Shown here: positions 40,032 to 42,404 of the stretch, one piece after another
Layout: every line of letters starts with the position of its first letter
Numbering within the stretch: position 1 is the first letter of the stretch
NCBI GenBank assembly: GCA_031272775.1
Contig: JAISTB010000037.1
Span: 1 to 64,000, forward strand
Length of the DNA: 64,000 nt
Direction of reading: 5' to 3'
Origin: Fusobacteriaceae bacterium
GTDB lineage: Bacteria > Fusobacteriota > Fusobacteriia > Fusobacteriales > Fusobacteriaceae
The notes under the pieces: generated by a model
Told to the model about the DNA's origin: nothing
What the model saw: the letters and a program-made list of their open reading frames with translations, nothing else
The model's database searches: none
Program-made: the position numbers and the translations under genes

Positions 40032-40883
40032 TCATATTTTTGGAAAAAGTGAAAGCCGATTCTTTTCTTTCCCGAAACCGGCGCCGATGGCGGACGCCGG
40101 GCAGGATTTCCGGCAGCGGCCGCAGCGGATGCACTCGGGGCCGTTGATGTTTTTGAGAACGTCCACATTCATGGGGCAGGTCCCCGCGCAATGCCCGCAG
40201 CCCGTGCATTTGTCCCGGGCGATCCCGTAGCGGTACAGCGACAGGCCGTTGAAGCCGGCGTAAAGGGCCCCCAGGGGGCAGAGATACTTGCAAAATGGGC
40301 GGTAAATCATAATTCCCAGCGCAATCAAAAAAAGCAGGATCCCCAATTTGAAGAAAAAGAGAAAGCCCAGCAGATTCCGGATCCCGCCGTTGGCGACTGC
40401 CAGAGGAAGCCCCGCGAAGAGCGTCCCGCCGGGGCAGATCCACTTGCAAAACCAAGGCAGGCCGAGGCCGAAGACATCCAGCGCCAAAAGGGGCAGTAAG
40501 ATCACAAAAACCACTAAAATTCCATATTTCAAGCGCCGGAGGGGGCGATCCCCGGGAAAGGTTCCGATCTTCCGAAAGAAGGGAATTTTCCACAGCAGAT
40601 CCTGAAAAAAGCCGAAGGGACAGAGCCAGCCGCAGACAAAACGGCCCAGGGCGGCCCCGAAGACAAACAAAAACCCCAGGGCGTAAAAGGGAAAGCGCCC
40701 CGCGGCCAGAAGCCCCTGCAACGCTCCCATGGGGCAGGAACCCAGCGCTCCCGGGCAGGACCAGCAATTGAGTCCCGGCAGACAGAGGGATTTCAGCCGC
40801 CCCTGATAAATCGTTCCCCGGAGAAAGCCCTTGAGATAAAAATTGCTGAGCAGAAAAAAGACGGCCTGAAATCGCTCGCGCAT
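40032..40883 (-). CDS. Membrane polyferredoxin, NapH/CcoG-like 4Fe-4S protein
   Basis: 283 residues from ATG 40883, four bases after the stop of the small CxxC protein. Five or six membrane helices alternate with CxxxCP motifs (CGWLCPFGFFQ, CKWICPGGTLF, CKYLCPLGALY). Two classical [4Fe-4S] motifs close the protein: CTGCGHCAGTCPMNVDV and CIRCGRCRKSCPASAI (about residues 215-270). Such proteins move electrons across the membrane to redox partners. It follows tlpA and a tiny CxxC protein, so it may supply reducing power to a periplasmic thiol system; that is inference. The length is near that of NapH relatives. Confidence 0.85.
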   Translation of the reverse strand: MRERFQAVFFLLSNFYLKGFLRGTIYQGRLKSLCLPGLNCWSCPGALGSCPMGALQGLLAAGRFPFYALGFLFVFGAALGRFVCGWLCPFGFFQDLLWKIPFFRKIGTFPGDRPLRRLKYGILVVFVILLPLLALDVFGLGLPWFCKWICPGGTLFAGLPLAVANGGIRNLLGFLFFFKLGILLFLIALGIMIYRPFCKYLCPLGALYAGFNGLSLYRYGIARDKCTGCGHCAGTCPMNVDVLKNINGPECIRCGRCRKSCPASAIGAGFGKEKNRLSLFPKI

Positions 40884-40887
40884 GGGA

Positions 40888-41043
40888 TCACCCGATCCCG
40901 ACGCATTCAAGGCAGACCCGGACGGCCCGCTGCAGGATAAGCCGGACTTCCCCGTCATGGAAGCCTATCCAGAGAAAAAGTGCACCGAAAAAGAACAAAA
41001 TGATCGTTATTCGGTTACTTGACCGCTTGCAGAACTTCTTCAA
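40888..41043 (-). CDS. CxxC membrane microprotein (CD1871A-like), overlapping tlpA
   Basis: A 51-codon frame on the minus strand begins with TTG at 41043 (GGAAGG eight bases upstream), inside the last 29 bases of tlpA, and ends at 40888. The protein starts with basic residues (MKKFCKRSSNR), has one hydrophobic helix (TIILFFFGALFLWIG) and ends VCLECVGIG. This basic start, one helix and C-terminal ICxECIGIG-type tail match the small CD1871A-type CXXC proteins I know from clostridia, where they also sit near thioredoxin-like and 4Fe-4S genes. The stop lies 4 bases before the polyferredoxin ATG, so the three genes look translationally coupled. Confidence 0.7.
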   Translation of the reverse strand: MKKFCKRSSNRITIILFFFGALFLWIGFHDGEVRLILQRAVRVCLECVGIG

Positions 41044-41542
41044 TTTTGGCCTTCCAATCCGCTTTGCTCGCCGATCCGATGAGATGCTTGCCGATAACCT
41101 TCCCTTCGCTGTCTACAAAGACCGTATCGGGGATAAACTGGATATTGCCCAGCCAGGGGAAAAGCTCCGTCGCGGGCAGCATATGCGTGTAGTCCGCCTT
41201 GGTTTTTCCGACGATCTCCCGGGCCTTTTGTACCTGCGCCTCGTCCAGATCGCCGTTTTCCTTGAGCGTATCGATCACGAGCCCCACAACGGCAAAATCC
41301 CTGTCGGCATATTCCCGGCTGATCTCGCCGAGATGCGGCATTTCCTCAAGACAGGGCGGGCAGAACGTCCCCCAGACATTGAGCAGCGTGACTTTGTGTT
41401 TGGCGAAATCCGCCCGGGTGAAGGTCCCCCCGTCAAGGGTCTTGGCGGTAAATTCGGGGAATTTCTCCCCCGCGCAAAAAAGCTGCGCCGACAGCGCTAA
41501 TAGGCCCAGAAATATCACTATTTTCGCTTTCAGATGGTTCAT
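41015..41542 (-). CDS. Exported thioredoxin-like protein (TlpA/ResA family)
   Basis: 175 residues from ATG 41542 with AAGGAG upstream. A signal anchor (IVIFLGLLALSAQLFCAG, about residues 6-23) exports it; the cysteine near the end of that stretch could allow lipid attachment, though a proper lipobox is not clear. The mature fold has NVWGTFCPPCLEEMPHL with the active site C-P-P-C (about residues 71-74), then PDTVFVDSEGKVIG with the cis-proline region. It reduces or repairs thiols outside the cytoplasm. Its end overlaps the CxxC microprotein, and the polyferredoxin follows. Confidence 0.88.
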   Translation of the reverse strand: MNHLKAKIVIFLGLLALSAQLFCAGEKFPEFTAKTLDGGTFTRADFAKHKVTLLNVWGTFCPPCLEEMPHLGEISREYADRDFAVVGLVIDTLKENGDLDEAQVQKAREIVGKTKADYTHMLPATELFPWLGNIQFIPDTVFVDSEGKVIGKHLIGSASKADWKAKIEEVLQAVK

Positions 41543-41591: not shown

Positions 41592-42140
41592 TTACAGGAT
41601 CTGCATCCCTTGTTTTGCCTTTTTGACCGTTTCGACGTCCGTCAGCGTCTCCGCCAGCAGAAAACCGAATTCCAGAGCCCGTCCGGCGCCGACGCCCGTA
41701 ATGAGATTGCCGTCCTTTTCGACGATGTTTCCGGTCACCTGATAGGCGCCCATCTGATCCCGGACGCCGCTGTGACAGGTCAGCTTCCGGTCCGCCGCGA
41801 GGCCGTTTTTCACGAGGACCGTCGGCGCGCCGCAAATGACGCCGACCAGTTTCCCGCCGTTGTAGTAGGCCTTGAGGACGTCCCCCACGGCTTTGGACTC
41901 GCCCAGGCGGGCGTAGCCGGGATAGCCCCCGGGCAGGATCAGGAGATCCCCGTCGCCGAGGTCTGTTCCCGCCAGCGGCAGATCCGCCGTTACCGCCACC
42001 CCGTGGGATGAGGCGACGCTTTTTCCTTCTCCGATGGCGACGGTCTTGACCGTGACGCCGCAGCGGGTCAGAATGTCATGGGGCGCGAAGGCCTCGATGA
42101 TCTCGAAGCCCTCGGCCAACAGAATATACGCTTTTTTCAT
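41592..42140 (-). CDS. DJ-1/PfpI family protein
   Basis: 182 residues, the length of DJ-1/YajL relatives. The fold starts KKAYILLAEGFEIIEAFAP with the conserved glutamate, LLILPGGYPGYARLGES follows, and the nucleophile elbow is GVICGAPTVL with cysteine at about residue 103. Roles reported for the family include protein and metabolite repair and chaperone activity; which applies here is unknown. It follows the small gene at 42153 after 12 bases. Confidence 0.88.
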   Translation of the reverse strand: MKKAYILLAEGFEIIEAFAPHDILTRCGVTVKTVAIGEGKSVASSHGVAVTADLPLAGTDLGDGDLLILPGGYPGYARLGESKAVGDVLKAYYNGGKLVGVICGAPTVLVKNGLAADRKLTCHSGVRDQMGAYQVTGNIVEKDGNLITGVGAGRALEFGFLLAETLTDVETVKKAKQGMQIL

Positions 42141-42152
42141 ATTTCCTCCCTT

Positions 42153-42404
42153 TTACGCGTCGAGCTTCCCTTTCCGGATCATGGAAAGGGCGAACTCGTG
42201 GGCGTCCAAAACGGCCGAATCGTGGGTCTGCTTGCGTTCGCCCTCATGGCAGCTGTTGATCACGATCTGCCTGTGTTCGAAGACGTTTCGCTCCAGTTGT
42301 TCCACGCTCAGCGCTCCGGCTTTGTACTGCGCCACCAGCGCGTCATACATTTCGCCGAAGGTCTTGTCATACAGCTCTTCGGCCCAATCGTCAAAAAAAT
42401 CCAT
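42153..42404 (-). CDS. Small acidic protein, 83 residues, unknown
   Basis: 83 residues from ATG 42404 with GAAGGGAAG upstream; a longer frame to 42440 lacks a better site. It is helical and charged (FFDDWAEELYDKTFGEMYDALVAQYKAGALSVEQL), with a central EHRQIVINSCHEGERKQTHD block and no membrane segment. It lies between galM (77 bases upstream) and the DJ-1 gene. I recognise no family. The codon pattern and ribosome site suggest a real cytoplasmic protein. Confidence 0.65.
   Translation of the reverse strand: MDFFDDWAEELYDKTFGEMYDALVAQYKAGALSVEQLERNVFEHRQIVINSCHEGERKQTHDSAVLDAHEFALSMIRKGKLDA

Follow-up and report, generated by a model that had tools for sequence, protein, structure and literature searches.

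Ferredoxin:thioredoxin reductase (FTR), a soluble enzyme of the cytosol or the plastid, reduces disulfides by one-electron iron-sulfur chemistry. The three-gene module described here, which encodes an exported thioredoxin-fold protein (TlpA), a membrane microprotein ending in a CxxC motif and a membrane polyferredoxin, would likewise reduce a disulfide by one-electron Fe-S chemistry, but its polyferredoxin is not a soluble protein and has no FTR domain (the catalytic domain was absent among its Pfam matches). Like CcdA, DsbD and ScsB, the module would bring electrons across the membrane to proteins of the TlpA/ResA/CcmG type, and its distribution, complementary to theirs, suggests that it does the same job. 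Unlike them, it lacks DsbD_TM, the proposed conduit being an iron-sulfur protein together with a single-helix CxxC subunit.

With proteins of the NapH/NosR/PceC type the module polyferredoxin shares a Fer4_5 membrane module, two CX3CP motifs and a C-terminal 2x[4Fe-4S] domain. For NapH-like proteins a transfer of electrons through the membrane, on to flavin domains outside the cytosol, has been proposed (PMC8238504), and the chemistry of CX3CP is given as unsettled in a second source (PMC5928378). The module polyferredoxin differs in having a further four-cysteine motif and a cysteine pair (C146/C150), neither of which is found in NapH, and in having a CxxC microprotein and TlpA as partners rather than an FMN domain. 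Pfam found FMN_bind neither in the three module proteins nor in the products of the two genes that precede tlpA; it was found only beside a paralogue in another genome (locus L154, below). PMC8238504 also describes DUF4266, which is secreted, small and encoded in DsbD/flavinylation clusters, and which ends in a CXC motif. DUF4266 resembles the microprotein in being small and extracytosolic, in carrying its redox motif at the very C-terminus and in having a thioredoxin-like gene nearby, but the motif and the membrane partner are different, and the likeness is one of description. The parts of the module are all of kinds already known. In the literature searched we found neither their combination nor a NapH-like protein that has a CxxC microprotein for a near-obligate partner.

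The window is a 64,000-nucleotide stretch of DNA from a Fusobacteriaceae bacterium (GCA_031272775.1, contig JAISTB010000037.1, positions 1 to 64,000). On its minus strand lie, in order, tlpA (41542-41015), a 51-codon frame that begins with TTG 41043 and whose stop ends at 40888, and the polyferredoxin gene (ATG 40883 to 40032). The 51-codon frame overlaps the end of tlpA (stop 41015) by 29 bases and finishes 4 bases before the polyferredoxin ATG, a geometry described in an earlier note on this DNA and confirmed from the sequence. A Shine-Dalgarno-like GGAAGG (41050-41055, minus strand) lies within tlpA, 6 bases 5' of the TTG. No start codon precedes TTG 41043 in the frame, and this TTG was retained because the next TTG would, it appears, cut into the membrane helix. 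Scans for promoters and terminators yielded no usable signal for a tlpA-microprotein-polyferredoxin operon.

The product of the small gene (40888-41043, minus strand) is a 51-residue membrane microprotein with one transmembrane helix and the C-terminal sequence CLECVGIG. Searched against NCBIfam, it is a member of NF040920 (CD1871A_fam), scoring 53.2 bits where the cut-off is 32 (2e-14), and residues 14-51 cover all 38 model positions; the earlier assignment to the CD1871A type therefore holds. The sequence has a start rich in K/R, followed by a single hydrophobic helix and the tail VCLECVGIG. The word 'overlooked', which the same note had applied to this frame, is right for the window but not in general, since the family has a name in NCBIfam and a copy is already annotated in the RefSeq entry of Peptoclostridium acidaminophilum, where TlpA, CD1871A and a 4Fe-4S protein lie close together. 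The family itself is only a name with no function attached, and a literature search of limited coverage found no paper on NF040920 or on the trio. No Pfam model matched the microprotein, and a search of solved structures gave matches at chance level only. A chance open reading frame is ruled out by the NF040920 match and by pS exceeding pN in all 18 non-overlapping pairs of microprotein relatives; the family is under purifying selection. The CxxC motif (C44 and C47; 40903-40914, minus strand) lies four residues from the C-terminus, and C44, E46, C47, G49 and G51 are invariant in all 81 rows of alignment A4. Because the N side is more positively charged than the C side in 78/81 rows, the protein is predicted to be N-in/C-out, so that the CxxC should face outside. 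Selenocysteine variants were not seen in the best 80 of 554 polyferredoxin loci (below), where all 80 small frames have C-x-E-C and a stop-free motif.

The polyferredoxin (283 residues; 40032-40883, minus strand) matches Fer4_5 (PF12801, 6.6e-16) with 58.4 bits against a gathering cut-off of 22, and also contains Fer4 domains. Its score of 59.7 bits against the NapH/MauN model TIGR02163 is far below the cut-off of 213, and it is, judged by its sequence, NapH-like but not NapH. All 18 of its cysteines are present in 81/81 rows of alignment A5. Eight are ferredoxin ligands, in the cytoplasmic 2x[4Fe-4S] domain (C226-C261; 40101-40208, minus strand) recognised by Pfam, by the structure search and in A5. 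Four more form the two NapH-type CX3CP motifs (C84 and C88, 40620-40634; C198 and C202, 40278-40292; both minus strand), which are predicted to lie on the cytoplasmic side. The remaining six have no counterpart in E. coli NapH. They form the N-terminal motif C34-x5-C40-x2-C43-x6-C50 (40734-40784, minus strand) and C146-x3-C150-P (40434-40448, minus strand), and hydropathy, charge and the cytoplasmic ferredoxin domain together suggest that all six lie outside the membrane. Against this topology, loop 23-65 has about four K/R residues, which is atypical of an outside loop.

Among solved structures the polyferredoxin was matched by its ferredoxin domain only, and its membrane fold was unmatched. 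AlphaFold2 modelled the polyferredoxin with a pLDDT of 84.7 and a pTM of 0.83; a model of a read-through fusion of microprotein and polyferredoxin reached 79.9 and 0.77. In the fusion model the microprotein forms helices at 11-29 and 32-47, the latter of which stops at the CxxC. The N-terminal cysteine loop scored 66/65 in this model compared with 76/57 in a single-chain model of another sequence, so that confidence there did not clearly rise, which counts against the conduit reading given below. MAFFT (alignment A6) lays the microprotein tail on the N-terminal cysteine motif of the polyferredoxin. This overlay is probably due to chance and possibly reflects an old duplication; it was not taken as homology.

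The partnership between the genes was measured in loci collected without reference to the small gene. An alignment of the three polyferredoxins of the window genus was used to scan genome contigs, and the best 80 of 554 confirmed loci were kept, 2 of the 80 being from the sister genomes of the window. In all of these best 80 loci a microprotein ending in C-x-E-C-x-G-x-G-stop lies directly upstream, at positions from a 14-base overlap to 102 bases before the aligned polyferredoxin start. A TlpA is adjacent in 71 of the 80 (63 as a same-cluster upstream ORF, 7 by upstream tblastn and 1, L078, downstream), with a median distance from tlpA to microprotein of -1 base in the 64 cases measured; in L074 there are two TlpA ORFs upstream, one of which gives a distance of 1285. 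In the other nine (L017, L020, L034, L035, L039, L047, L057, L066 and L079) a strong TlpA is encoded elsewhere in the genome, with E of 7e-44 or better in every case. The microprotein thus follows the polyferredoxin more tightly than TlpA does. The gene order and operon-like packing seen in the window are borne out, being conserved well beyond it in relatives.

A second sample consisted of 299 further clostridial genomes, all belonging to the same phylum as G106, a C. difficile genome. Of these, 40 gave a match to NF040920 (28 above the cut-off) and 43 to the polyferredoxin (E<=1e-30), which include all 40 with NF040920. The polyferredoxin lies within 1.5 kb in 29 of 30 NF040920 loci, and it accompanies all 10 of the remaining loci, in one case across a gap of about 0.7 kb. 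Starting from the small protein, a polyferredoxin was present in 40/40 genomes here; starting from the polyferredoxin, the microprotein was present in every one of the best 80 of 554 loci. In the 3 extra polyferredoxin genomes the immediate upstream neighbour is a microprotein of divergent sequence, C[LF]SCIG[IVL][QE]-stop, and overall the microprotein is found at 44 of 46 polyferredoxin places in the sample. Each of the two exceptions, L154 (L154:1230-3393, genome G162) and L155 (L155:660-2790, G280), is a second copy, found in a genome where the standard pair is present as well. In L154, Pfam identified the neighbours as an FMN_bind protein and an Oxidored_molyb protein; L155 has near-identical frames (Pfam was run on L154 only). 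These copies may be the same conduit with another extracytoplasmic redox partner. Taxa that carry the module include Roseburia, Blautia/Dorea-type Lachnospiraceae, Peptoniphilus, Finegoldia and C. difficile. At one locus (L149:1873-3204) a group II intron reverse transcriptase is inserted between the microprotein and polyferredoxin genes. Two sources label CD18710 a conjugative transposon and CD1863-CD1870 conjugation genes of CTn5 (PMC12772354, PMC3158075). CD1871A itself was not met with in either, but from these labels a mobile element may contain or adjoin this C. difficile namesake of the family.

The microproteins of L150-L165, other than L154 and L155, are of a second type (type 2), with tails C[LFT]SCIGxx or CLACMGLVR that score under or near the NF040920 cut-off; the model could be widened to include them. 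In the 18 type-2 relatives, C34, the first of the six extra cysteines, is offset by one residue (5 rows examined), and C146 is replaced by Ser in 5 of the 18, which counts against our preferred reading that the polyferredoxin and the microprotein form a transmembrane conduit to TlpA. The substitution also bears on the main rival reading, that the CxxC tail supplies two ligands of an extracytoplasmic Fe-S cluster shared with C146/C150, from which electrons exit to TlpA or to other acceptors. Such a cluster would account for the nearly fixed distance of the CxxC from the C-terminus, ending CxxC-[IVM]-G-[ILV]-x, and for the two spare outside cysteines of the polyferredoxin. The five relatives with Ser at C146 nevertheless retain the CxxC, and the inner residues of the motif vary (LE, ME, LQ, LS, TS, FS, LA) as they do in redox motifs; we regard a shared cluster as unlikely, though worth keeping in view. 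The FMN_bind neighbour that replaces the microprotein in L154 fits an outward exit of electrons, as expected under both the conduit and the shared-cluster readings.

DsbD_TM (PF02683) was found in 209/299 genomes, in 18/43 with the module compared with 191/256 without it (p=4.6e-5, which is overstated as the genomes are not phylogenetically independent). A TlpA of the window type (A8, E<=1e-15) was found in 78/299 genomes; among these, DsbD_TM was present in 59/61 without the module compared with 7/17 with it (Fisher p=8.4e-7, again overstated as kinship is ignored). In genomes that hold 50 of the 78 non-fusobacterial loci among the best 80 of 554, there was no DsbD_TM match in 37/50, and PF13386 adds only one above its cut-off (G124). 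Two observations count against the conduit reading: 18 of the 43 module genomes do have a DsbD_TM match, and only 17 of the 43 have a TlpA of the window type, many of the other module loci lying beside weaker TlpA matches or none.

Within Fusobacteriota, DsbD_TM was matched in 66/98 genomes (64/95 outside the window genus). Of the three genomes of the window genus none has a strong CcdA match; G051 has no DsbD_TM match and the other two have weak ones only (29.6 and 37.8 bits), which lie in long frames, of 461 and 470 codons. None of TlpA, the microprotein and the polyferredoxin matched DsbD_TM or DsbD_2 (PF13386). The DsbD_TM match of the window genome is an HMA-DsbD_2 protein of 451 residues followed by an FtrD-like protein (L002:1024-3101, contig C14), a pair that is perhaps concerned with metal handling. 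The presence of this one DsbD_2/DsbD_TM protein allows a reading in which it serves the window TlpA and the small gene has no thiol role. However, it carries an HMA domain, adjoins an FtrD-like gene and lies on another contig, the sister genome G051 retains all three genes with no DsbD_TM match at all, and 37/50 module genomes (above) likewise have no DsbD_TM match, so that this reading is very improbable. The earlier statement that the pathway works without a DsbD/CcdA homologue thus stands in part: no DsbD_TM match in the genome has the strength or size of the CcdA of other Fusobacteriota, but the HMA-DsbD_2 protein on the other contig has to be excepted. With that qualification, the complementary distribution and the predicted outer cysteines of the polyferredoxin lend support to a route to TlpA that does not depend on CcdA.

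The presumed recipient, the product of tlpA (175 residues; 41015-41542, minus strand), was classed as an exported thioredoxin-fold protein by its Redoxin/AhpC-TSA domain (PF08534, 2e-17; PF00578) with a WxxxCxxC motif, here WGTFCPPC. The active-site CPPC (C61 and C64) lies at 41351-41362 (minus strand), and C61, P63 and C64 are invariant in the 20 rows of alignment A8. The protein does not reach the NCBIfam equivalog cut-offs for TlpA and ResA. Upstream of tlpA are a DJ-1/PfpI-type gene and a small gene (window 41592-42140 and 42153-42404), a pair that is present in one sister (L004:49-896) and absent from the other (L003). Elsewhere, the module TlpA is fused to a rhodanese domain in L006:2702-3847 and L029:2911-3840, which hints at extracytoplasmic sulfur or persulfide chemistry, and in L019:2626-3783 and L025:2540-3817 (Peptoniphilus and others) it has an N-terminal region of about 240-270 residues with no Pfam match.

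Relatives of TlpA, ResA and CcmG are thiol-keepers in cofactor assembly. On this background TlpA and the microprotein could be maturation factors that hold the outer cysteines of the polyferredoxin in the reduced state so that clusters can be inserted, while its electrons go elsewhere. That the small gene keeps closer company with the polyferredoxin than TlpA does would suit such a role. We think it rather improbable, since 10 of the 17 TlpA genomes with the module have no CcdA, which would leave TlpA itself with no known reductant.

A reductive route to TlpA is the simplest account of a polyferredoxin and a microprotein that can hardly be separated, of an exported TlpA that is usually present and of a CcdA that is frequently absent. 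We consider it probable, with some reservation, that the module is a transmembrane conduit, with the NapH-like polyferredoxin as large subunit and the CxxC microprotein as small subunit, that reduces TlpA in place of CcdA/DsbD. The basis for this is the partnership, the gene order, the conservation of cysteines, the complementarity with CcdA and the purifying selection. Beyond these, we infer the topology, the cluster content, the direction of the electrons and the contact between the proteins, as follows. Low-potential (ferredoxin-level) electrons would enter the two cytoplasmic [4Fe-4S] clusters of the polyferredoxin, and the membrane cysteine sites would carry them to an extracytoplasmic Fe-S site formed by the N-terminal four-cysteine motif. 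This outside site would pass them to the CxxC at the end of the outward tail of the microprotein; once reduced, the CxxC would in turn reduce exported TlpA by thiol-disulfide exchange. The job of CcdA/DsbD would then be done by iron-sulfur chemistry instead of a thioredoxin relay.

The genus of the window is represented by three genomes, of which the window's own measures 2.09 Mb and is 99% complete. The small gene is present in all three and in none of the 95 others searched in the phylum, and both sister genomes (L003, L004) have tlpA, microprotein, polyferredoxin and dnaX in order. In a tree of 126 polyferredoxins the three sequences of the genus form one clade (100/99), and the other named leaves are Bacillota. 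As this clade lies inside a tree whose other leaves are Bacillota and genomes without a name, the genus appears to have taken up the module once, horizontally, from Bacillota. The Fusobacteriaceae MAGs Pq454 and Md513 are from termite-gut samples.

These results provide the family NF040920 with a partner, show how it is distributed and propose a role for it, and they add divergent C[LFT]SCIG members below the cut-off. CcdA/DsbD is missing from many anaerobes that export thioredoxin-like proteins, and the module is a specific candidate for the reductant of those thiols, one that applies to the module taxa named above. The module may represent a third kind of transmembrane thiol-reductant pathway, in which one-electron Fe-S wiring is coupled to two-electron disulfide chemistry at the CxxC of a 45-50-residue subunit, common in CcdA-free gut Clostridia and acquired by a termite-gut fusobacterial genus; our judgement on this broader proposal is evenly balanced. 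If true, it would be a membrane device that converts ferredoxin electrons into extracellular thiols.
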